Made by a program: the position numbers and the translations under genes
Assembly: GCF_003473485.1 (NCBI RefSeq)
Contig: NC_053045.1
Coordinates: 36,368,494-36,432,493 of the forward strand
DNA: 64,000 bases
Source: Medicago truncatula
Lineage: Eukaryota > Streptophyta > Magnoliopsida > Fabales > Fabaceae
Reading direction: 5' to 3'
In this document: piece by piece, positions 7,758-61,757 of the stretch
Layout of the letters: every line of letters starts with the position of its first letter
How positions within the stretch are numbered: position 1 is the stretch's first letter
The notes under the pieces: generated by a model
Seen by the model: the letters and a program-made list of their open reading frames with translations, nothing else
Told to the model about the DNA's origin: nothing
The model's database searches: none

Positions 7758-8653
7758 GGAAGATTTACCTGGAAAAATGTGAAGAGCCTGATTTGAAAAG
7801 GGCAGGGGATTGCTTTTTCTTAGCTCGTTGTTATCACATGGCAGCTCAAGTTTATGCTAGAGGAAGTTTCTTCTCAGATTGTTTGAATGTTTGTGCAAAA
7901 GGTGGATTGCTTGACACTGGATCACATTACATTCAGTGCTGGAAACAAAATGAGAGAGCTGACCCTGGTTGGGCTAATAGCCATGACCTTTACGCAATTG
8001 AACAGAAATTTATGGAAAATTGTGCCCTCAATTATTTTGACAAAAATGATTACAGATCCATGATGAAATTTGTTCGAGCTTTTCATTCGATAGATTTGAA
8101 GCGCGGGTTCTTACAATCATTAAACTTACCTGATGAGCTTCTTGAATTAGAAGAGGAATCAGGCAACTTTATGGAGGCTGCTGTGAACATTGCTAAGACG
8201 ATGGGTGATATTCTTCGTGAGGCTGATTTGCTTGGGAAAGCTGGTGAGTTCTTGGATGCATATGAACTTGTGTTTTTCTATGTATTTGCAAAATCTCTTT
8301 GGTCTGGTGGAAGCAAAGCATGGCCCTTAAAGCAGTTTACGCAGAAGGCCGGGCTTTTGGGAAAGGCATTGACATTTGCAAAGGAAGTGTCGAGCAGCTT
8401 TTATGAGCTTGCATCCACAAAAGTTGAACTATCAAATAAGCATGATAACATTTTTGAAATAGTGAATCAATTGAAATCTTCTCGCATTCATAGCAGTATC
8501 AGAGGGGAAATATTATGTTTGTGGGAACTGCTGGATTCTCATTTTCGGTTAAACTCCTCAAAGTATGTCTGGCAAGACAGTATGTTTGATGTTTCTGTCG
8601 AAGGCATGATTATGAAGAATCAACTTTCCGTGGAGACATTGTTTTGTTGTTGG

Positions 8654-8857
8654 TGTTAGAGACACAATCCCTTAATTATTGGATCATATCAAGTCAACAC
8701 ATCAAGTTATAAATAACAATTATCTGCATATCAAGTCAGCACATCTTATACATAATTAGCAATTATGTTTCCTTATAGCTTATCATATTCTGTTGTATAT
8801 ATTGTATGTCTTACTCAACATTTTAAAGATAAGAAATACAATACAAACTTTCTATCT
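8654..8857 (+). repeat. 5' LTR of the young copia element
   Basis: It begins TGTTAGAGACAC and ends TTCTATCT; the end is TG..CT, not the usual TG..CA, but is fixed by the target duplication and by the primer site that follows. No difference from the 3' LTR was seen. Confidence 0.95.
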
Positions 8858-8871
8858 TGGCATCAGAGCTC
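8858..8871 (+). promoter_or_regulatory. Primer binding site
   Basis: TGGCATCAGAGCTC directly after the 5' LTR resembles the TGGTATCAGAGC complement of the initiator-Met tRNA 3' end used by plant copia elements, with one mismatch. Confidence 0.8.
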
Positions 8872-8905
8872 TTAAGCTGAAAAGCTCTTGATCCATCAGA
8901 AAAAC

Positions 8906-11900
8906 ATGGCTTCCGCTGCCAACAACAACAAAAATGACCTACCATCATCTGTATCTGTCAAGCTGGACAGAAACAATTATCCCCTATGGAAATCTCTAGT
9001 TCTACCAGTGGTCAGAGGATGCAAGCTCGATGGATATATGTTGGGAACGAAAAAGTGTCCTGAAGAATTCATTACCTCTTCGGACTCAAGCAAGAGCAAC
9101 AACCCTGCCTTTGAAGAATGGCAAGCCAATGATCAACGCCTCCTTGGGTGGATGCTCAACTCGATGGCTACTGAAATGGCAACTCAGCTGCTGCATTGTG
9201 AGACCTCCAAACAGCTTTGGGATGAGGCTCAAAGTCTGGCTGGAGCACACACAAGGTCTCAAATCATTTATCTCAAGTCTGAATTTCACAGCATCAGAAA
9301 AGGGGAAATGAAAATGGAAGACTATCTAATCAAAATGAAGAACCTTGCTGACAAACTCAAACTTGCCGGCAATCCGATTTCAAATTCTGATCTGATCATT
9401 CAAACTCTTAATGGTTTGGATTCCGAATATAATCCTATAGTTGTAAAATTGTCCGATCATACCACACTCAGCTGGGTGGATTTACAAGCTCAATTACTAA
9501 CTTTTGAAAGTAGAATTGAGCAACTGAATAACCTCACTAATCTGAATTTGAATGCAACAGCAAATGTTGCAAACAAATTTGATCACCGAGACAACAGGTT
9601 CAATTCCAACAACAATTGGAGAGGTTCCAACTTCAGAGGTTGGAGAGGAGGCAGAGGAAGAGGCAGGTCATCCAAAGCACCATGCCAAGTCTGTGGCAAG
9701 ACTAATCACACTGCAATAAATTGCTTTCACAGGTTTGACAAAAACTACTCAAGATCCAATTATTCAGCAGACAGTGACAAGCAAGGATCTCACAATGCCT
9801 TCATAGCCTCTCAGAACTCAGTCGAAGACTATGACTGGTACTTTGATAGCGGTGCAAGCAATCATGTAACACATCAAACTAACAAGTTCCAAGACTTGAC
9901 TGAGCACCATGGTAAGAATTCTCTGGTTGTTGGTAATGGTGATAAATTAGAGATTGTGGCCACATGTTCTTCAAAACTTAAGTCACTCAATTTAGATGAT
10001 GTCTTATATGTACCTAACATTACCAAAAATCTATTAAGTGTTTCAAAATTGGCTGCTGACAACAACATATTTGTTGAGTTTGATAAAAATTGTTGCTTTG
10101 TGAAGGAAAAATTGACAGGGAAGGTAATACTAAAAGGGCTACTTAAAAATGGATTATACCAGCTCTCAGGCACCAAAGGAAACCCATAAGCTTTTGTATC
10201 TGTCAAGGAAAGCTGGCATAGGAGACTTGGTCATCCTAATAATAAGGTCTTAGACAAAGTCTTGAAAAGTTGTAATGTCAAAGTACCACCTAGTGATAAT
10301 TTTCGTTTTTGCGAGGCATGCCAATATGGCAAAATGCACCTTTTACCTTTTAAGTCTTCTTCTTCTCACGCCCAGGAACCACTTGAGTTGGTCCACACTG
10401 ATGTATGGGGTCCTGCACCAATAATGTCTTCCTCTGGTTTTAAATACTATGTGCACTTTATTGATGATTTCAGTAGGTTTACCTGGATTTATCCCTTGAA
10501 ACTAAAGTCTGAAACTGTGCAGGCTTTTACTCAATTTAAAAACCTAACTGAAAACCAGTTCAATAAAAGAATCAAAGTAATTCAATGTGATGGTGGTGGT
10601 GAATACAAACCTGTGCAGAAACTTGCAATAGATGCTGGTATACAATTTAGAATGTCATGCCCATATACCTCTCAACAAAATGGAAGAGCCGAGAGGAAAC
10701 ACAGACATATAGCTGAATTTGGCTTAACCTTACTTGCACAAGCTCAAATGCCCTTACATTATTGGTGGGAAGCCTTCTTTACTGCAGTATACCTCATTAA
10801 CAGACTGCCATCCCAAGTTACTCAAAATGAGAGTCCCTATTCACTCATATTTCATAAAGAACCTGACTATAAGTTGCTAAAACCATTTGGTTGTGCGTGT
10901 TACCCTTGCCTCAAACCGTATAACCAACACAAGCTACAATTCCACACAACCAGGTGTGTGTTCTTGGGATATAGCAACTCCCACAAAGGTTACAAATGTC
11001 TCAACTCTCATGGAAGGACTTTCATATCAAGACATGTCATCTTTAATGAAGACCTTTTTCCATTCCATGAGGGGTTTCTCAATACAAGAAGTCCTTTGAA
11101 AACAACAATTAACAATCCATCTACTTCTTTTCCTTTGTGCAGTGCAGGTAATTCTATCAATGATGCTAGCATTCCAATCATTGAAGAAGAAAATCAAGAT
11201 GAGACAAACGAAGAAGACTCTCAAGGTGTTACTAGTGACACAGAACAAACTGACAATGGTTCATCAGAAGGTGACACCACTCATGAAGAGACACCAGACA
11301 TAGTTCAGCAGCAAAATGTGGGTGAATCAAGCTTGGACACAAATACAAGTAATGCAATACACACAAGGAGTAAGTCAGGCATTCACAAGCCGAAGCTACC
11401 TTACATTGGAATCACTGAGACTTACAAAGACACAGTGGAACCTACAAATGTCAAGGAAGCTCTCACAAGAACCTTATGGAAAGAAGCAATGCAAAAGGAG
11501 TTTCAAGCTCTCATGTCCAACAAGACGTGGATACTAGTCCCTTACCAAGATCAAGAAAACATAGTTGACTCAAAATGAGTCTTCAAGACCAACTACAAGT
11601 CAGATGGTTCCATAGAAAGGAGGAAAGCCAGACTAGTTGCAAAGGGGTTTCAACAAACAGCTGGAATCGACTATGAAGAAACATTTAGTCCTGTAGTCAA
11701 AGCTAGCACAGTCAGAGTCATCCTCTCAATTGCAGTACACCTCAATTGGGAAGTTAGGCAACTAGACATCAACAATGCGTTCCTAAATGGATACCTCAAA
11801 GAAACCGTATTCATGCATCAGCCAGAAGGATTTGTTGATCCTACCAAGCCTAATCACATATGCAAACTATCTAAAGCAATTTATGGGCTGAAGCAGGCAC

Positions 11901-12970
11901 CGAGAGCTTGGTTTGATAGTCTCAAAACTGCATTGTTAAATTGGGGCTTTCAAAACACAAAAAGTGATCCTTCTCTTTTTCTTTTAAAAGGTAAAGATCA
12001 TATCACATTTCTCCTTATATATGTGGATGACATAATAGTCACAGGCAGCAGCAACAATTTCCTTCAAGCTTTCATCAAACAACTTAATGATGTCTTCTCT
12101 CTCAAAGATTTGGGTCGTTTACACTACTTTCTGGGCATAGAAGTACAAAGAGATGCAAGTGGAATGTACCTTAAACAATCCAAATACATCGGTGACTTGC
12201 TGAAGAAATTCAAGATGGAAAATGCCTCACCATGTCCAACACCGATGATAACAGGAAGACATTTCACAGTTGAGGGGGAGAAATTGAAAGATCCAACTGT
12301 GTTCAGACAAGCCATAGGAGGGCTGCAATATTTAACTCACACAAGACCTGACATAGCCTTTTCTGTTAATAAACTCAGTCAATACATGAGTTCACCTACC
12401 ACTGACCATTGGCAAGGTATAAAAAGAATCTTGAGATATCTCCAAGGCACCATCAATTATTGCCTGCACATCAAGCCATCCACTGACTTGGATATAACAG
12501 GTTTTTCTGATGCAGACTGGGCCACTAGTATTGATGACAGAAAATCCATGGCTGGTCAATGTGTGTTCCTTGGTGAAACACTCATCTCTTGGTCCTCAAG
12601 AAAACAAAAAGTAGTATCAAGATCAAGCACAGAGTCAGAGTACAGAGCACTAGCTGACCTAGCTGCTGAGATAGCATGGATTCGTTCACTACTTTTTGAA
12701 CTGAAACTCCCATTGCCAAGGAAGCCCATACTATGGTGTGATAACTTGAGTGCCAAGGCACTAGCTTCTAATCCAGTATTGCATGCTCGTTCTAAGCATA
12801 TTGAAATTGATGTTCATTACATCAGAGACCAAGTACTACAAAATAAGGTTGTTGTGGCTTATGTTCCTACAACGGATCAAATTGCAGATTGTCTCACCAA
12901 GCCATTAAGTCACACACGTTTCAGTCAACTAAGAGACAAACTTGGTGTGATTCACTCACCACCAGTTTGA
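8906..12970 (+). pseudogene. copia gag-pol polyprotein with two nonsense codons
   Basis: One frame from the ATG at 8906 to TGA at 12968-12970, about 1354 codons. In order: UBN2-type gag (LDRNNYPLWKSLV), CCHC knuckle CQVCGKTNHTAINC at about 9684, protease DSGASNH at about 9847, GAG-pre-integrase WHRRLGHPNN, integrase HTDVWGP / QCDGGGEY / AERKHR, reverse transcriptase with YVDDIIVTG near 12020, and RNase H with DADWA and STESEY. TAA at 10187-10189 interrupts between protease and integrase, and TGA at 11576-11578 stands where reverse transcriptase expects Trp (..SK*VFKT). The frame is otherwise unbroken. The first ATG is placed 48 nt after the 5' LTR, normal for this lineage. Confidence 0.9.
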
Positions 12971-12977
12971 AGGGGGG
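12969..12977 (+). promoter_or_regulatory. Polypurine tract
   Basis: GAAGGGGGG lies immediately 5' of the 3' LTR and would prime plus-strand synthesis. It overlaps the last codon of the polyprotein. Confidence 0.85.
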
Positions 12978-13181
12978 TGTTAGAGACACAATCCCTTAAT
13001 TATTGGATCATATCAAGTCAACACATCAAGTTATAAATAACAATTATCTGCATATCAAGTCAGCACATCTTATACATAATTAGCAATTATGTTTCCTTAT
13101 AGCTTATCATATTCTGTTGTATATATTGTATGTCTTACTCAACATTTTAAAGATAAGAAATACAATACAAACTTTCTATCT
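12978..13181 (+). repeat. 3' LTR of the young copia element
   Basis: 204 bp, apparently identical to the 5' LTR, followed directly by the second copy of the GTTGG target duplication. Confidence 0.95.
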
Positions 13182-34499: not shown

Positions 34500-34920
34500 C
34501 GTTGTTCACTTTTGTTAATTGGTATGATGTGTGCGGCTACTGCATCTACTGATGAAGACGATGATACGCGCCGCTATGTTATTCTGTGGACCCGCCATGT
34601 TAGATATAGTAATAGTAATAGTAATACTTTTTTTTTTTTTTTTTGAAGAATATAGTAATATTTTTTAATTAAATTAAGGGTTAAATGTGTTTTTGTCCCT
34701 ATAAATATGTCATCTTTTCATTTTAATCCCTCTAAAAAATTTCTTCAACTTTTGGTCCCTATAAAATTTTCCATCTTCACTTTTAGTCTCTCATTTAAAG
34801 TAAACTCATATGTATAATTCATATTTTTTAATAAAATTTTGCAGAAAAATCTATAATATTATGACAATCTCTCCCAAAAACCTTAGAATTTTTTAACAAA
34901 ACATGAATTTAATATGAATT

Positions 34921-36711
34921 TATCGAAGGCAGGAAAGGAAGTTATGATCAAATATGTGTTACAATCTATTCCTTCATATATAAGGAAGTTATGATCAAAT
35001 ATGTGTTACAATCTATTCCTTCATATATAATGAGCATTTATCTTTTGCCGAATTCAGTTATAGATGATATTGAGAAGATGATCATTGCATTTTGGTGGGG
35101 AGGAAGAAGTAACGAGGGATTAAATGGATGGCTTGGGAACGTGTGGCATGCCCCAGAGAGTTTGGTGGAATGGGGTTTTGGAATTTCAAAGCTTTTAATA
35201 TTGTTATGGTAGCTAAGCAAGGATGGAGTTTTCTGTCTAAATCTGATTCTCTGTTTGCTAGAATTTTTAAATCGAGGTACTTTCCACGGTATTCACTTTT
35301 GAGTGCTAAACTCGGTAATAGCCCAAGCTTTGCTTGGCGGAGTATTTGGAATTCGCGTCAGTTACTTTTATATAGTTGTAGATGGACGATTGGAGATGGG
35401 CAACAGGTTAACTTGATGAATGATCCGTGGGTTCGAGGTGTTCACGGTAGCTGGATTCAATCCCCACAAGGCCAAGATGTGCATAGTTTGCGTGTGTCTG
35501 ATTTGATAGCTGACGAGGAACGAGTTTGGGACATTGATAAGATTGAATCTTTGTTTTCCGATGATATGGTGCAAGCTATTCTCGACACACCACTGTTTGC
35601 GGAAGTTCAGAATGATATAATAGCGTGGATGATGAAACGTAACGGGAGGTATATTGTTAAGACTGATTATAAACTGGCTATGATGGAGTTGTTACACACG
35701 GATCGGTTCCATGTTGAGGAAGAGTGGCATAGAATCTAGAAGGTGAATTCCCCTCATAAAGCACGTAATTTGTTATGGAGGATTTGCAGGGGGTGTGTTC
35801 CTACTCGTCTCCGACTTCGATCAAGACATGTACAATGTGAGTTGGTTTGCCCCTGTTGTGATACGGCTGTTGAGGATGATTGGCATGCTTTTGTAGGTTG
35901 TACGGTTGCGCGTGAAAGTTGGTATTGGGCAGGACTTTCGACTGTGCTGCAAACGCGTGTTGGAACTGAGAGCCGCTTGGCAGATTTTGTTTTTGACGTA
36001 TGTTGTTCAGAAAGCCGAAACACTGTTGGTCGAGTGGCTTTCCTTCTTTGGCAAATTTAGGCTGCTCGTAATGATGTCATTTGGAATGACGTTCATCATA
36101 CTTCAAAAGTCATTGGAAGGACAGCATTAGATGCATGGCAGCAATGGCAAGAGGTTCATAAACATCCATCACTATTGGTTGTGCCACACGGCCAGAATAG
36201 AGTGTAAGGTAACAACCCAGTTTGGGATAAACCAAGCGAGACATGGCTGAAGTGCAATGTGGATGCCGCGTTCCATGACCGTAACCATCTTACATCTTTT
36301 GTGTGTTGTGTTAGAGATTCCTTCGGGCTCAAACGAAATGGCAACAGGCAAATATGACTGTTTTGGAGGGGGAGGCAGTAGCCTTACTCGCTGCTATTCA
36401 CTTTGCTGATGTAAACAGATGGGACCGGGTTGTCTTCAAGTCTGACTCTGATACTCTAGTGCCAGCTCTATCGTCAGCGGGACATGGTAATTTAGAATTA
36501 TATGCGATTGTTTCTAGTATTATTTATCAGTTATCTTTACATTCCAACTTCGAGGAGAAGTTTGTTAGGAGACAAGCGAACATGGTTGCTCATACTTTAG
36601 CTAAGGTGGCCTGCTCTTGGGCTAGTCACTGTATTTTTAATTCTTATCCTTCTTGTATTAAACATTGGTTGATTAATGATAATAGTTAACTTTGTTTTGG
36701 TAAAAAAAAAA
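34921..36711 (+). mobile_element. LINE (non-LTR) fragment, 5' truncated, with poly(A)
   Basis: Open pieces at 34991-35125, 35128-35739, 35743-36060 and 36354-36689 read through the C-terminal part of a plant LINE: end of reverse transcriptase (LQSIPSYIMSIYLLP), GGMGFWNFKAFN, the zf-RVT zinc-binding region (HKARNLLWRICRGCVPTRLRL, shortened, and CPCCDTAVEDDWHAFVGC), and a plant-type RNase H (EGEAVALLAAIHFA, SDSDTL, RRQANMVAHTLAKVA). Frameshifts and stops separate them. A 10-base A-run ends it at about 36711. Truncation at the 5' side with an A-tail is the usual form of a LINE insertion. The flanking words TATGAATTTAT and TATAAATTTAT may be its imperfect target duplication. Confidence 0.8.
34935..35028 (+). 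repeat. 47-bp tandem duplication at the LINE 5' end
   Basis: Two adjacent identical copies of 47 bases starting AAGGAAGTTATGATC (34935 and 34982), so part of the reverse transcriptase end is repeated. Confidence 0.9.
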
Positions 36712-36998
36712 TATAAATTTATATATTTTTTATGCTTAAAAATTCATATTTAATTTGTGCTTTGTTAAAAAATTCTAATTTTTTGGGGATTTTTTTTTTT
36801 TACAATATTCTACATATTTTGTACAATTTTATTAAAAAATACAAAAGTTAACTTAAAAATAGGGACCAAAAGTAGTGATTGAAAATTTTATAAGGACTAA
36901 AAGTTGAAGGAAAATTTTAGAGGGATTAAACGAAAAGTTTGTATATTTATAGGGACCAAAAACATATTTAACCCTTAAATTAAAAAGCCTTAAATAAG

Positions 36999-37163
36999 TA
37001 AAAGGTCCATGTAAGTTGGCGCATTTTTTGTTTTAGTCCTTGTAAATTTTTTTGTTGCGAAACAAACCCTGTATTTATCAAACATTTTGGATCTAGTCCT
37101 TGTCGTTCAGTTCCGTGAAAAAAACCATGAGCTGGCTAACGGAGCAATATGTGGCACTTCGTG
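36999..37163 (+). repeat. Left TIR of the MULE
   Basis: About 165 bp, opening TAAAAGGTCCATGTAAGTTG; pairs with 40717-40882. Confidence 0.85.
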
Positions 37164-37294
37164 AGTTGGCACTAGTTAATGATTGGGGTTAGTATGGGGA
37201 CTAAAACCAAAAACGCAGTTTGACAGGGACTAATTTAAAAAAAAAACTAATTTTCAATTTTTGAATTTCAAAAACTTAAAATCCCTTCTTCTTC

Positions 37295-37295
<1 letters not shown>

Positions 37296-37332
<37 letters not shown>
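37296..37332 (+). repeat. (CT)n(AT)n microsatellite
   Basis: A CT run followed directly by an AT run, in the presumed 5' UTR of the GRF gene. The same compound motif in the same order lies at 39585-39660 in the transposase. Confidence 0.95.
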
Positions 37333-37429
37333 GGTTTTCTTCCTTCTTCCTCTCACTCACTCTCTGTCTCTCTTCTTTCCTTCTTCTTCCTCTATTTGGG
37401 CCCAACATTTTCAGGAGAATCATTCAATA

Positions 37430-37956
37430 ATGTCTTGTCATTCCATTTATCAATCATCATGTAATGAGTTGCCTTTTTGTGGTTGCAACAAAACCGCGAG
37501 GATGTTCATATCCAATTCAATTGAAAACCCTAAAAAGAGATATTGGAAATGCCCAACATATACTCTGAGTTTGCCGTTGTAATACTTGGTTTTTTTTTCT
37601 TCTTCTTATTTTCACACATTTTAATTTGCTGCATATGTTTGTTTTCATCTCAGATTGCTAATAGTTGTAAGTTGTACATATGTGATGATGAAATTGAAGG
37701 ACATCCCCCATATGTCCGTCCTGTACCAGTACAAGCAATTGAAGCATCATCATCTGCCTTGAAGAAGCTTCCTTGTGACAAAAACTGTGAAGAAGTAATG
37801 AAAGATTTTATCCTGTTGATGAAAGAGATGAGAATTAACAAAAATGAGAAGTTTAAGAAGAAGCTTGAGCAATCAAGGAAGAAGAGCAACCTGTTTATGA
37901 TTTTGTTGATCTTATCTTGGATATCTTTTGCTTTGTTTGTGATGAATTTAAGCTGA
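37430..37956 (+). CDS. GRF-type zinc-finger protein with C-terminal membrane segment
   Basis: Two exons, 37430-37578 and 37665-37956, 146 residues, join at phase 2 (TT|T). Residues 15-58 fit a GRF zinc finger: C17-x-C19, then NPKKRYWKC (C41) in place of the family's NPGRRFYxC, then C51-KLYICDDE, with acidic residues where the family has W-x-D. Residues 75-122 are charged and probably coiled (KKLPCDKNCEEVMKD, KKLEQSRKKS). Residues 124-145 are a hydrophobic tail anchor (NLFMILLILSWISFALFVMN). The gene lies inside the MULE, reading in from the left TIR and converging on the transposase. Alternative acceptors 14 bases upstream would break the frame. Unlike the transposase it shows no lesion. Small GRF-TM proteins are numerous in legume genomes; their role is unknown to me. 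Confidence 0.65.
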
Positions 37957-38129
37957 ATGGCTAAGTTGTCAAAACTATGTTCAAGTTGTGTATTTTGGTT
38001 TGTAATGGTTTGGTTTATTTCCTTTGGAGTTTTATTGTAATTGAAACATGAGTTTTAGTGGTTTAATTGAATTAATGGAATGATGTTTGTTTATTGTCCT
38101 TTAAAGTATTTTGTGTGCTGAATTTGATA

Positions 38130-38774
38130 ACAAAAAAACATGATTAAGACTAACAAACAAATAGATAACAGTAGCTAGAAAAATTAAGCACTTAAATATG
38201 CAATTAATGAAAAATTACAACTAATTGATTATGATTGAACTCTAACCCCCTTACCTCAATTAGCAAATAATCCTAGCTAAAACTTCAATTTAACTCCTAG
38301 AATCTCCATCACCTCTTGGGTCTTCAAGTTTTTCTCCCTTCTAACCCTTCTATCTTCTCTTGAACTCTCTCTTTCTACCTCTCTCAAAATTCTTGTGAAA
38401 TGAAATGAAAACCTATTTTCTCTAAAGTATAGAACTTATATAGACTATACTCAAATGGGCTTAACCCTAATGCCTTAGTGTGCTTAACCCACTCATTCAC
38501 AAATTCTAAAATGTTTCTACTCACTTAACGGTAAAATAAATACAACAATCACTTACTGGCTCGCAACTAATTACCACACTAGTAACTTAGTAAAATAATG
38601 GTTCTCACTTGAAACACTGAAAATAATCATCACCATTACTAAATTACCTTACTCACAAAATGACCAAATTACCCGTCTAACACGAAACCCATTAAAATGC
38701 ACCAAACGATAAATAATCACACACAAGCACATAAAAACAATTAAAATAATTATAGCGAAAATCGGGCTGTTACA
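38130..38774 (-). mobile_element. Gypsy-type LTR fragment within the transposase gene
   Basis: On the minus strand it starts TGTAACAGCCCGATTTTCGC, a start I associate with chromovirus Ty3/gypsy LTRs, and carries a TATA-like CTATATAAG near 38433. It interrupts the transposase exactly after ..VEHRL. The expected continuation of the transposase on its other side is absent, so the far end and the transposase C-terminus were lost together. The left limit at about 38130 is approximate. Confidence 0.65.
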
Positions 38775-39578
38775 CAGTCTATGTTCCACACTCTCAAACA
38801 ATTCATCAAATACAACCATCAAACCCTATGATTCATAAATGAAAACAAGGAACAAGGTAAGTCAAAATACATGAAATTAAGAATGGAAACAAAATTAATA
38901 AAAGAATAAAGTAAATCAAAATAAAGAATTACCTTCTATTGGTCAGAGATGAAAACCCATCTCTTATCTTAACCAATATCCTCAAATAACAAGGTTAAAA
39001 ACCACTTCCAAGATTCTTTTGTTTCAATTTCACAAACCCCAAAAGCTAGTGGATAATATTGATCATTTGGGTCCCTAGCTACAACAATTAAAAGTGTACC
39101 TCCATATTTGGTCTTCAAATGGCATCCATCTGCACCTATGAAAGGTCTACAGGCAATAGTAAACCCTTTTTTGATACCATCAAAATTGAAATAAAAGGAT
39201 GAGAACCTTGGTTGTAGTTGTGGACCAAGCATCTCCATGTTGATCATGCACGTGTTTCCTCGATTAACCCTCTGCAATTCAGCTGAGTACTTCCACAACA
39301 GGTTGTACTGCTTTGCAGCATCACCCTCAATCTTCTCCTTTGCAATTGCTTTGGCCCTCCATGCTCTGTTTATGGTTATACCCACAACGTGTGTGGTTGA
39401 CATCTTCTTGAACACAACCTTTGATTCCCACTTTGAAGTTGCAGATCTATTCAAAGTTGCCCTGCAACATGTGTGCTTTTCATGCCACCGTTTCACTCTA
39501 AAAGTGTGTTTATCCCCCACTTTACTTACAAGTGCCCAGAAACCACATTTGACCTTGCATTCTACCCTTACTCTCTCC

Positions 39579-39662
<84 letters not shown>

Positions 39663-40462
39663 TTTTTAATAAATTTTATTTCCCACCCATTTAAAACTGA
39701 CCACTCAATAATAGCCTCTTTAAATTCAGCCAATGACTTAAACTTCAACCCAAGTTTAAACTTATAACTCTTTGATAACTCATCCATATTAAACTTATCA
39801 TATCTTGGTTCTTTTTCATCACCTGATGCATCAGGGTCACTACTATCAAGTTCCTCGCTAACATACCCAACATCCAAATCATCTACAACAAATGATGATG
39901 AACCAGAAACACAACTCAACACATTCATCCTTCTACTGTTAGCATCCATTGCATTGGTCTTTTTAGGAGGAGGAGGAGGAGGTAGAGGAGGGTCCTCACC
40001 TTTAATTCCAAGCTCATCATCCAAACCCAGTGATCTTTTCTCCTCACTATCATCAAGTCTTGCACCATCATGTTCATCTTCACTACTCTCAGTTTCATCA
40101 CCAGAGACTTCATTTCCAACATCATCTTTTCCTCCAGAAACTTCATATACACCATTAACAAATCCTCCAGAAACATCAACTGCACCATCATCAACACCTC
40201 CAGAAACATTAATAGGACCTCCTCCAACACTGGCTCCTACAATCCCTATCACTAAATGCTCAACATATATGCGAGCCACACTGTTTTGGATAACATAGTC
40301 AGAAATCCTGCCAGTGTCATTGTCATCAATAATCCTAACATACTTGTCCTCCTCATTAATATACCACCATAATCGATACTTAAGATGATCATCATATCCA
40401 AACTGCTTTAAAATACCAGTGGCTTCAAAATAGCTCCACCTATATTTACCTTCAAAGATCAA
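38775..40462 (-). pseudogene. Mutator-like transposase (MuDR family), C-terminus lost
   Basis: The N-terminal region (GKYRWSYFEATGILKQFGY, then VARIYVEHLV) is like MULE transposases; an acidic Asp/Gly/Ser-rich segment follows, then LGLKFKSLAEFKEAIIEWS and the MuDR-type zinc region (WHEKHTCCRATLN). The MULE core has FIGADGCHLKTKYGG with the first catalytic Asp, then VARDPNDQYYPLAFG and SWKWFL. TAA at about 38969 replaces the Gln of GQDKRWVFISD and a TAG follows. An intron (about 38832-38930) then leads to FDELFESVEHRL, where the LTR fragment sits. The frame is also disturbed by the AT/CT microsatellite at 39585-39660. No plausible ATG was found at the 5' end. Confidence 0.85.
39585..39660 (+). 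repeat. (CT)n(AT)n microsatellite in the transposase
   Basis: CT repeats to about 39612 followed by AT repeats to about 39660. On the coding minus strand it lies between FIKND and the CGFWALV segment, where the original seems to have been an Arg/Glu-rich GA stretch that expanded. Confidence 0.95.
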
Positions 40463-40716
40463 AACACAACTGTTTAATCTTCTTCTTCAACTGTCTAATG
40501 CCTTTGATCACCATCGTATTCTGAAATGGTAAGGCTTCTACGTCGTTTTTCGCCTACGATTACTGCCAAAACCGCTTCTTCTCTCACCGAAACTGACTTT
40601 CTGCCTTTCTAACTTCAGACAATGAAACCCTAAAACACAAGGACGAAAATGAAAAATGTAAGGCATTTTTTCAATATAAAGGGGGCAAACACTAATGCCA
40701 TCTCATCAACTACCTA

Positions 40717-40882
40717 GTCATCAGATGCCACGTATTGCTCCGTTAGCTAACTCATCGTTTTTTCACGAAATTGAACGACAAGGACCAGATTTAAAATGTT
40801 TGGTAAATACAGGGTTTGTCTCGGAACAAAAAAGTTTACAAAGACTAAAACAAAAAATACGCCAATTTACAATCACCTTTTA
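40717..40882 (-). repeat. Right TIR of the MULE
   Basis: Reverse-complement partner of 36999-37163. It ends 102 bp before the first AlaRS ATG. Confidence 0.85.
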
Positions 40883-40983: not shown

Positions 40984-43900
40984 ATGAAAAGAGGTTTCAG
41001 TTTACTCATCTCTCTCTGTAACCGTAACATTCTATTAGCGCCGCCACCCTCTCACGGTATCTCGAGATCTCTTCTCTCCACCTCCGCCGTCTCCACCGCC
41101 ATGACAGGAACTGATACACTCGATATCGAGTGGCCGGCGAATCGCGTCAGAGATACCTTCGTCAAGTTCTTCGAAGAGAAGAATCATGTCTACTGGAAAT
41201 CCAGTCCCGTCGTCCCCGTCAATGACCCTACTCTCCTCTTCGCCAACGCCGGTAGCTTCCCTCCCTCATCTCTCTTCTATGGTTATTATTGTTATGCACT
41301 ATTACTTACAATCACTCGAGTAACCAGTTAGATTTTGGTGATTCTTAGAATTGAATTTGCAATCGAAGTTCTTGTAATTTTATTGCCTAGAAATAGAATC
41401 TCAAATTGAAATCTACTATTTTATTGGTTTTTATTTGAGTTGTCCAATTTCAATAACAAAGTCTAAGATATACTGTTTTGACACCAGCTATAAGCTGTTT
41501 TCATAAATCATTTTGGAGAGCTTATGGAAGTAAGTTGAAAATAGGATATGGATATGTTATAAGCTGTTTCTATAAGCTCTTTCAAACAGTTCCACAAGTG
41601 CTTATACCCAGATAAACTACAATAAGTCAATACAAAGAGGTCGTAAATACTGATGATAGGTAAATATAGTAATCTTGCTGTAATTTTTGTTATGATTTTA
41701 TATGTGATAGGGATGAACCAGTACAAGCCAATATTTTTGGGGACTGTTGATCCCAACACTGCATTGAGCAAACTCTCCCGTGCTTGCAATACCCAAAAGT
41801 GCATTCGAGCTGGTGGTAAGCACAATGATCTTGACGATGTGGGGAAAGACACTTACCATCACACCTTCTTTGAGATGTTAGGTAATTGGTCCTTTGGCGA
41901 TTACTTCAAAGAAGAAGCCATTAGCTGGGCATGGGAGTTACTCACCAAAGTATGCTTTATCAATTGGAGTTTTATATCTTGCTTCTTGAACTATGTGCTT
42001 TATGTTGTTTCACCTGCTTGTTAATAAAATTATATAGTTTAGTAAAATCATTATGGGATTATTTTTTTATTTTTTAATTTTGCTTTGGAATGACATCTAA
42101 TTCTAAACTTTAAAAGCTAGGGAGTAGGAAGTTACTGAAGCTACCCATACTGGGATATATTCCTATTGACTGTTTCTTCTATATTAATTAGGTTTTCGTG
42201 CTGCTTAAATAACATGTTTCAATTAGAAACTGCACCATCACTCACTGCAGCTAACCACCACTTCCATCCTGTCAATTATACCATGCCTACCACTACTGCT
42301 CTGGGTTCCCTTTGATGACAAATTATATTTTTGAATTAATAGTTGCAGATACCAGTCTTAGCACTGCCAATCCCAACCCAACGTGGCCTTCGGTTTCTAA
42401 ATGTGGATAAATTAATAGTAAAAGTCAATTAAAACGTTCAATTCAATTTGAATAAGCTCGCTAAAGTTATTATGTTTATAGGTGTCTATCTATCGTGTTT
42501 GCAGTATCTTCAAACGCAAAAGTTGATAGTTATTTAGTTCCTCAGTAGATATATAGTGCATTACTAAATTCTTTTGTGGTTACATAATCTACTTCTTTAC
42601 TGTATTGTAGGTTTATAAATTACCATCAGATCGCATTTATGCCACATATTTTGGCGGTGATGAGAAGGCTGGTCTTGCCCCTGATACTGAGGCTAGAGAT
42701 ATATGGTTAAAGTTTTTGCCACCTGGACGTGTGCTTCCTTTTGGCTGCAAAGTATGTTTTTACTACGTTTTCTCTTAAATATGTGGAATGAAATATTTTC
42801 ATAATATATGCAAAGTCCATTTAATATCAAAGTAATATTTAATAATTTGATTTGATACATTTACCATTTATGTAATATTGTCTGCCATCTAGGTTATAAT
42901 TTGTACTGAAAACAATTATTTGACTCTGCTTTGTTGGGTTCTCTTCTTAAAAGGAAAATCTGGGGAAACAACCTTTCCCTATTTTTTAATTTTTTATTTT
43001 TATGAAGAAAAAAATAAAGAATAGTAGCTTTAGCTCTAACCTAAAGAGCTTATACATCTCTTCTCTCTCTTTTTTTTTTCCTAATTTCCTTAACCTCCTT
43101 TCTTTCTTCTTTAAAATCATAGTAACCCCTCGTCATCCCATCACAAGCCCATGTCACAAGCAGTAGGCTACTACTTGCAACAAAACTACAAGTCAACCTA
43201 GTGGGCTACTATACTATAAGTGCAGCCTTCTCTCCTTTCATCTGAGCTACACCCCACCCAGTCTCTCACGATCCATCCCCTGGAGTCCCACGACCGCTGA
43301 TGTCATCTTATTTTTGCAAACAGGATCCTCTGTTTTCTGTGAACAGAACAGATCGGGGCTCTCTGTTTTCTGTACAAAAAAAACCTTTGTCTTCAAAACA
43401 GATCTAACATCCTTTTCTGCCAATTTTACTCTTTTGTTTTCAGCCAACAGTAGTTCTACTCTCTGTTTCCTGCTGTTAGAATTACAGTCAGGGTTGCCAG
43501 CATTCATTCTAGAACTATAGATAGAATAGAGAATCGGAAATGCTTCTTGAGCTGTTTCTTTGATTATGATTTGTTAACCATTTCAATGATCTTTGCTATC
43601 TATTTATAGACTACGCCAGCTGTAACTAGTTACAGTTAGTTACAGTGCGTTTGAGACTACAACTATGTATATAAACCTTAGCTGCTACATACTCTTAATA
43701 TCTGCTGTTAGTTTTTCTCCAACAACCATGGCAACTTCATCTAAACCATCACCAACAGGTCCAAAAAACAGGACATCCACCTCTCCATAAGTGGTTTATT
43801 GTGCTCAAATGTTTATTTTTTACGTATTTGTTTAGTTTCTCAGATACTATGTCTGTGTTTGTAGAATTGTTTTGTAATCTGGCAAAAAATTATTTGAATT

Positions 43901-58978: not shown

Positions 58979-59359
58979 GGCTAAAATATGGTTTTAGTCC
59001 TTACAAATATGCCTCGTTTTGGTTTTAGTCTCTAAAAAAAATTGTAGTTTTTGGTCCCTGCAAAATATTTTGTTTTTGAAAATAGTCTCTGACTTCAATT
59101 TTGTGATGATTTGTCACCTTTGTAGGGACTATTTCTAAAAACAAAATATTTTGCAGGGATTCAAAAATAAAACAAAATATTTTGCAGGGACTTTTTTTTT
59201 TTTAAATGAGTTCAGTCATCATATGCCATGTATGCAAATCATCACAAAAATGGGGTCATGAACTATTTCCAAAAACAAAATATTTTGCAGGGATAAAAAA
59301 TTACATGGATTAAAATCAAAACGAGACATATTTGCAAGGACCAAAACCATATTTTAGCC
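58979..59359. mobile_element. 381-bp MULE-type MITE
   Basis: Ends GGCTAAAATATGGTTTTAGT are inverted repeats, and a perfect 9-bp direct repeat TTAAAACTA flanks it (58970-58978 and 59360-59368). An internal ACAAAATATTTTGCAGGGA word occurs three times. Confidence 0.85.
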
Positions 59360-60894: not shown

Positions 60895-61757
60895 GGCTTA
60901 ATTAATGATTTGGTCCCTTAAATTATTTGTTGGTTACATTTTGATCCCATAAGTTATTAATGTTACGTTTTGGTCCCCTAACTTATAGTCCGTTAGTCAA
61001 ATAAATCATTTCCGTTAAATTGGGTGAAAATCTGTTAATCTTCATCCCTTTCATCATTAAATCCAGAATTTCAACAAAATTCACCACCTTCATCAACTCT
61101 ATTCATCAGCTCCATTGAAAAATCTAAAAACTTCATCACCTCCCTTCAACACCAAACTCAAAAAAATCAAAAAATAAAACCCCAACAAACTCTATAATTC
61201 AATTAAAACTTGAATGTTCAATTTTTCCCAAATTCAAAACCATATTTATCAAACTTCAAATCAACTTCATGGATTCACATTCATACTTCATGTGGGTTAC
61301 CTTTCCCAGTTACGGTAACAACCTCATCTCTTTTACCCCAATTCTTCATTCTCTCGTCTACCCCAATTCATTACATCATTTACTTATAACAAGTCCAACA
61401 ATAACAACCTCATCTCTTTTCATTCATAGCACAATAAAAACAACAACAATAACAACAAATCTTCCAACTTAAAAGCCATAGAAATATTTGGAACTAAAAG
61501 CTTTATCTTTGGGGAAAAAATTAATTACTAGATTTAATGATGAAGATGAATGGGTGATGAATTTTGAGTTTTGATGATGAAGAGTGATGAATTCTGGGTT
61601 CAATGATGAAGATTAATAGTTTTTTTATAAAATTTAACGGAAAGGATTTATTTGACTAACAGATTACAAGTTAAGGGACCAAAACGTAATGTTAATATCT
61701 TATGAGACCAAAATGTAACCAACAAATAACTTAAGGGACTAAATCATTAATTAAGCC
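60895..61757. mobile_element. 863-bp MULE-type non-autonomous element
   Basis: Inverted ends GGCTTAATTAATGATTTGGT (one mismatch with the complement of the right end) extend to arms of over 120 bp. A perfect 9-bp direct repeat TAGAATCTA flanks it (60886-60894 and 61758-61766). The interior is a CAT/ACA-rich stretch with no transposase. Confidence 0.88.

Follow-up and report, generated by a model that had tools for sequence, protein, structure and literature searches.

A 64,000-nucleotide stretch of Medicago truncatula DNA (the window) contains 3.9 kb bounded by inverted repeats, raising the question of whether this segment is a transposon with two converging genes and, if so, whether the smaller gene belongs to it as a regular partner. 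In maize MuDR, mudrA and mudrB converge, each from one end. The segment analyzed here has a pair of long inverted ends, a minus-strand transposase with recognizable domains and a broken frame, and a small plus-strand frame that lies between the ends and reads inward from the left one. Its long terminal inverted repeats and its Mutator-type transposase, in which both the MuDR DNA-binding domain and the MULE domain are recognizable, place it among the MULEs, and its two genes converging from the two ends give it the MuDR layout. The locus probably holds the degenerate remains of a Mutator-like transposon that once carried two genes in the MuDR layout, a short way upstream of an alanyl-tRNA synthetase-like gene.

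The left terminal inverted repeat spans 37000..37164 on the plus strand and the right one 40718..40881 on the minus strand, as judged from a BLAST self-match and from alignment of the two ends. Comparison of the element with the window by BLAST paired 36996-37156 with 40885-40726 (87% over 161 columns, E 3e-50), and an end-to-end alignment inward from 37000 and 40881 was identical at 141 of 165 columns; the differences comprised 17 transitions, 6 transversions, and 1 gap, giving a K2P distance of 0.159. These values bear out the 165-bp repeat pair of the original prediction, whose outer coordinates of 36999-40882 are correct to about 1 base. By blastn, the window held no second copy of the element, and a 22-base piece of the ends gave 0 matches in a viral contig collection, which is not a plant collection. 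MuTAnT was considered as an identity for the element and rejected, as MuTAnT ends begin GGGG and sit in TA tracts according to the available part of PMC4486113.

Target-site duplications of MULEs are mostly of 9 bases. Our target-site scan took in seven inverted-repeat elements of the window, including the Mutator-like element, and under strict settings detected no duplication within one mismatch at that element or at two other inverted-repeat elements. Among the 25 best matches of a separate, less strict scan, the highest for ends that pair was 6/9 (36994/40887), the flanks of the originally predicted ends matched at 5/8, and a 6/8 match fell at ends that do not pair. Perfect 9-base duplications flanked three of the six other inverted-repeat elements (34678-36974, 60895-61757, and 58979-59359), and an element near 165-942 had a target-site match of only 6/7. 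An old insertion whose flanks have decayed would likewise show no duplication, and only 25 bases separate the element from the insert at 34678-36974. Counting against the Mutator-like reading are this missing duplication, the single copy in the window, the lack of relatives in the collections searched, and a GRF score, described below, that is under the family cut-off.

Inward from the right end, on the minus strand, frame listing and Pfam revealed a 291-codon transposase frame (39614..40486) that ends within the opening part of the MuDR DNA-binding domain. An in-frame TAG at 39611-39613, in a (TA)n(GA)n tract, separates it from a 213-codon frame (39610-38972) in which the MULE domain begins. 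According to frames, Pfam, and BLAST, this second part of the transposase covers 38933..39610 on the minus strand; near its end are two further in-frame stops, a TAA at 38971-38969 and, ten codons later, a TAG at 38938-38936, and it is followed by a GT donor at 38932. A putative GT-AG intron (38826..38932) would then end with the AG just before 38825, where transposase-like sequence resumes in an exon of 17 codons (38775..38825, minus strand) that fits the transposase and is cut off by foreign sequence. The repeat tract, (CT)n(TA)n on the other strand and placed at about 39576..39660 by sequence reading and BLAST, lies within the DNA-binding domain. Of 2000 first-order random sequences, 0 contained frames as long as the 291-codon and 213-codon ones.

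In the transposase as found, the MULE domain scored above its Pfam cut-off (E 1.1e-6, 29.4 bits vs 27.6) and DBD_Tnp_Mut just under its own (E 1.8e-5, 24.7 bits vs 25). When the stops were read as X, in a query that omitted the repeat tract, both domains passed their cut-offs, at E 2.1e-6 and 27.7 bits for the DNA-binding domain and at E 6.3e-11 and 43 bits for the MULE domain (profile positions 3-92 of 99). These scores confirm the prediction of a Mutator-type transposase on the minus strand, read from the right repeat. The N-terminal part of the transposase matched 0 Pfam families; we take it to resemble PB1-like domains. The transposase had also been called broken, and so it is: the three in-frame stops, the repeat tract in the DNA-binding domain, and the LTR-like sequence that cuts it at 38774 show that it is disrupted in at least three ways. 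Two of the stops could have arisen from Gln codons by C-to-T changes, Gln being presumably the residue expected at those positions.

At 38774, the sequence switches to TGTAACAGCCC. From its first bases and from a later promoter-like and transcript-like part, this piece looks like the start of an LTR; read on the minus strand, the LTR-like sequence starts TGTAACAGCC at 38774 and may extend over 38100..38774, the lower coordinate being only a guess. It had no database match, and its far end was not found. The GACTG beside it was considered as one half of a 5-base duplication and discarded, as no TG start in 38051-38700 had a flank matching at 4/5 positions. Between the LTR-like piece and the small gene, no 3' part of the transposase was seen by eye or in the frame listing.

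The small gene reads inward from the left end on the plus strand, and its frame sits entirely between the two element ends. Exon 1 (37430..37578) begins with an ATG at 37430, 265 bases inward of the left repeat, and encodes the first part of a GRF-like finger (the CxC and third C); in the 146-residue model, Pfam placed a below-cut-off GRF match at residues 15-43. Exon 2 (37665..37956), delimited from frames, splice pairs, and hydropathy, would supply the fourth Cys, a charged middle, a C-terminal membrane-type helix, and the stop codon. An open 146-codon frame needs removal of an intron at 37579..37664, from the GT at 37579 to the TAG at 37663-37664. We paired GT and GC donors in 37480-37639 with AG acceptors up to 37759, and 16 donor/acceptor pairs yielded more than 100 residues. 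Only three of these 16 kept all four cysteines in an open frame, with donors at 37573 (GC), 37576 (GT), and 37579 (GT) and, in each case, the TAG acceptor at 37663-37664; the last of these donors gives the 146 residues first proposed.

The TAG appears to be a weak acceptor. The CAG at 37652-37653, which lies 11 bases upstream and follows a pyrimidine-rich run, looks better, acceptor strength being judged here by eye. This CAG occurred in a single listed pair, with a GC donor at 37496, to give 122 residues that lack the middle of the finger. The description of the small gene as an open two-exon gene therefore stands insofar as the 146-residue frame exists, but is weakened in that the four cysteines stay open in only three of 16 splice pairs, all dependent on a weak acceptor. 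Correct splicing has probably been lost in this copy, which cannot move by itself.

Whether this frame was ever a gene was judged from its length and content. A plus-strand frame of at least 140 amino acids between 37157 and 38060 arose in only 0.24% of 5000 first-order random sequences, and because such a frame is so rare we regard it as probably a former gene. That it is instead a chance open frame would agree with the sub-threshold GRF match and with the lack of any GRF protein among the solved-structure matches given below, but is improbable given both its rarity and the coherent order of start codon, four cysteines, charged part, and membrane tail.

The cysteines of the predicted protein are residues 17, 19, 41, and 51. 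Its GRF match (PF06839) had an E value of 0.013 and covered profile positions 1-30 of 45 rather than the whole finger, scoring 16.1 bits against a gathering cut-off of 25.9; removing the tail raised this score to 17 bits. With the exons joined at the CAG instead, and so out of frame, the GRF match scored 16.9 bits (profile positions 1-32), and a recombinase zinc ribbon came up as a weak second match (E 0.079). As the GRF scores were nearly equal for both joins, the family search cannot distinguish the TAG from the CAG join, and as all were under the gathering cut-off, we label the finger GRF-like only. The top Pfam match of the whole protein was DUF2956 (residues 108-143, 17.9 bits, cut-off 25), which we take to be compositional. 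Residues 122-146 form a C-terminal hydrophobic stretch with Kyte-Doolittle values up to 2.35 in 19-residue windows. Of the GRF-like finger and C-terminal membrane anchor in the original prediction, then, the hydrophobic stretch holds up and the finger does so in part, its 16.1 bits being under the cut-off.

Searches with the small protein confirmed no relative in the collections covered. Against solved structures, the whole protein gave 19 matches at E values up to 1 and the finger alone gave 1 match at E values up to 10, none of them named as a GRF protein. In the window, tblastn recovered only the gene itself and two matches with E values of 4.6 and 8.7. In viral and prokaryote contig collections, respectively, the small protein had 17 and 75 pattern stretches and the transposase part at window positions 38972-39568 had 2 and 19, with 0 confirmed relatives for either query; because these are, by description, not plant collections, the misses say nothing on plants.

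The open frame beside a wrecked transposase had been taken as a hint of selection or recent reuse. We simulated neutral drift with the transition share observed between the two ends and with indels left out, and the frame kept its ATG and remained stop-free in 70, 49, 27, and 7% of 4000 trials at 2, 4, 8, and 16% change per site, respectively. If the two ends were identical at the start, a K2P of 0.16 between them would mean about 8% change per end; this initial identity is an assumption, as the two ends of such an element can differ from the outset. As the frame stayed open in 49 to 27% of neutral trials at 4 to 8% change, its openness is no sign of selection, and as no target-site duplication was found and the ends differ by a K2P of 0.16, there is no sign of recent reuse either. 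We therefore do not uphold the hint, considering the weak acceptor that is needed, the frequency of neutral openness, and the divergence of the ends. Selection on the small gene, or its reuse by the host, would account for a 146-codon frame that is open under one splice choice although the transposase is wrecked, but the need for the weak acceptor, the ease with which drift (without indels) leaves the frame stop-free, and the weak finger score make this very improbable.

In the Mutator-like reading that we prefer, the transposase was read inward from the right end, and the GRF-like gene with its membrane tail was cargo of the element and was read inward from the left, with each end presumably serving as a promoter. 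We consider it somewhat unlikely that the element regularly used the small protein as a helper. If it was, its C4 finger would most likely have had a putative role in binding nucleic acid while the tail tethered the protein to the nuclear envelope or ER, and the protein would have acted on transposon DNA or RNA.

The small gene may instead stem from a one-off event, in which a piece of a host GRF-type gene was taken up, as in Pack-MULE-like transduplication, and never served the element. This origin differs from our main explanation only in where the small gene came from and is compatible with it. That plant MULEs capture genes is well established (PMC13317346), and both the small frame and its finger look worn; a start codon of its own near the end, a frame closed by a stop codon, and a convergent placement such as a genuine second gene of an element would have speak against capture, which we rate as a serious possibility at somewhat less than even likelihood.

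Known systems bear on this choice. The earlier likeness to maize MuDR is fair as to layout. In table 1 of PMC6446971, elements of the plant MUDR group have one or two ORFs and ends of 30-320 bp, with PMD antisense in most members; second genes that converge on the transposase are common among plant Mutator elements, making the layout an already known one. With maize MuDR, the element shares long inverted ends and two genes (PMC6446971), and differs in that its transposase is broken, no target-site duplication was found, and the Pfam matches of its second gene include nothing mudrB-like. With the plant MUDR and MUDRAVI2 groups, it shares long ends (30-320 bp in group 50) and a second ORF antisense to the transposase (PMC6446971, table 1), whereas PMD is absent from the Pfam matches of its small protein. 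VANDAL elements with VANC and KIU elements with ULP1 are also Mutator-like and carry extra genes beside the transposase (PMC13317346 and PMC6446971; VANDAL ends are 46-174 bp in table 1 of the latter), but they are classed as non-TIR in PMC13317346, and their extra proteins are quite other.

For the finger, the comparisons are by description: both At4g04775-like proteins and Medicago N20 have a GRF-type finger. Plant GRF-finger proteins of the At4g04775-like kind bear a membrane tail, as the small protein does. Plant genome annotations list many small GRF genes. PMC4517396 calls N20 a GRF zinc finger protein and gives its expression as nodulation-specific. The term GRF occurs 0 times in the main text of PMC6446971 and 0 times in PMC13317346. 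The literature searched, with subscription journals mostly outside it, held no treatment of GRF fingers as part of Mutator elements and no GRF-membrane partner of such elements; the sole co-occurrence of GRF with Mutator, MULE, or transposase was in work on NLR domains, with the words apart. We advance only tentatively, and with more doubt than belief, that GRF-like membrane-tailed genes are the regular second gene of a plant (perhaps legume) Mutator family, in a place like that of mudrB or VANC, and that they may be ancestral to host GRF genes, the nodulation-specific N20 among them. If Mutator elements did carry such genes repeatedly, these would add another accessory kind to mudrB, VANC, ULP1, and PMD, and the numerous small GRF genes of plants might stem from them; one broken copy cannot show this.

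The right end of the element is followed, after 102 bases, by the ATG at 40984 of the alanyl-tRNA synthetase-like frame (Pfam tRNA-synt_2c, E 4.7e-12). This frame opens the first of two diverged copies of one region, at 41011 onward and 62224 onward, pieces of which are 72.6 to 82.3% alike by BLAST. On the other side, the inverted-repeat element at 34678-36974, which has the perfect 9-base duplication TTAAATTAA and ends 25 bases left of the Mutator-like element, contains an RNase H-like frame (Pfam RVT_3, E 1.2e-13) and a 208-codon frame (35113-35739) that is LINE-like by eye and matches 0 Pfam families; one possibility is that a Mutator-type element here took up a piece of a LINE. Elsewhere in the window, the element at 60895-61757 has ends of about 160 bases at 88% and the perfect 9-base duplication TAGAATCTA, and the short element at 58979-59359 is 68% self-complementary and flanked by the perfect 9-base duplication TTAAAACTA. 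At 8652-13181, two identical 206-base repeats surround three long frames in a row that look Ty1/copia-like by eye, and the flanking frames look like one interrupted host gene.
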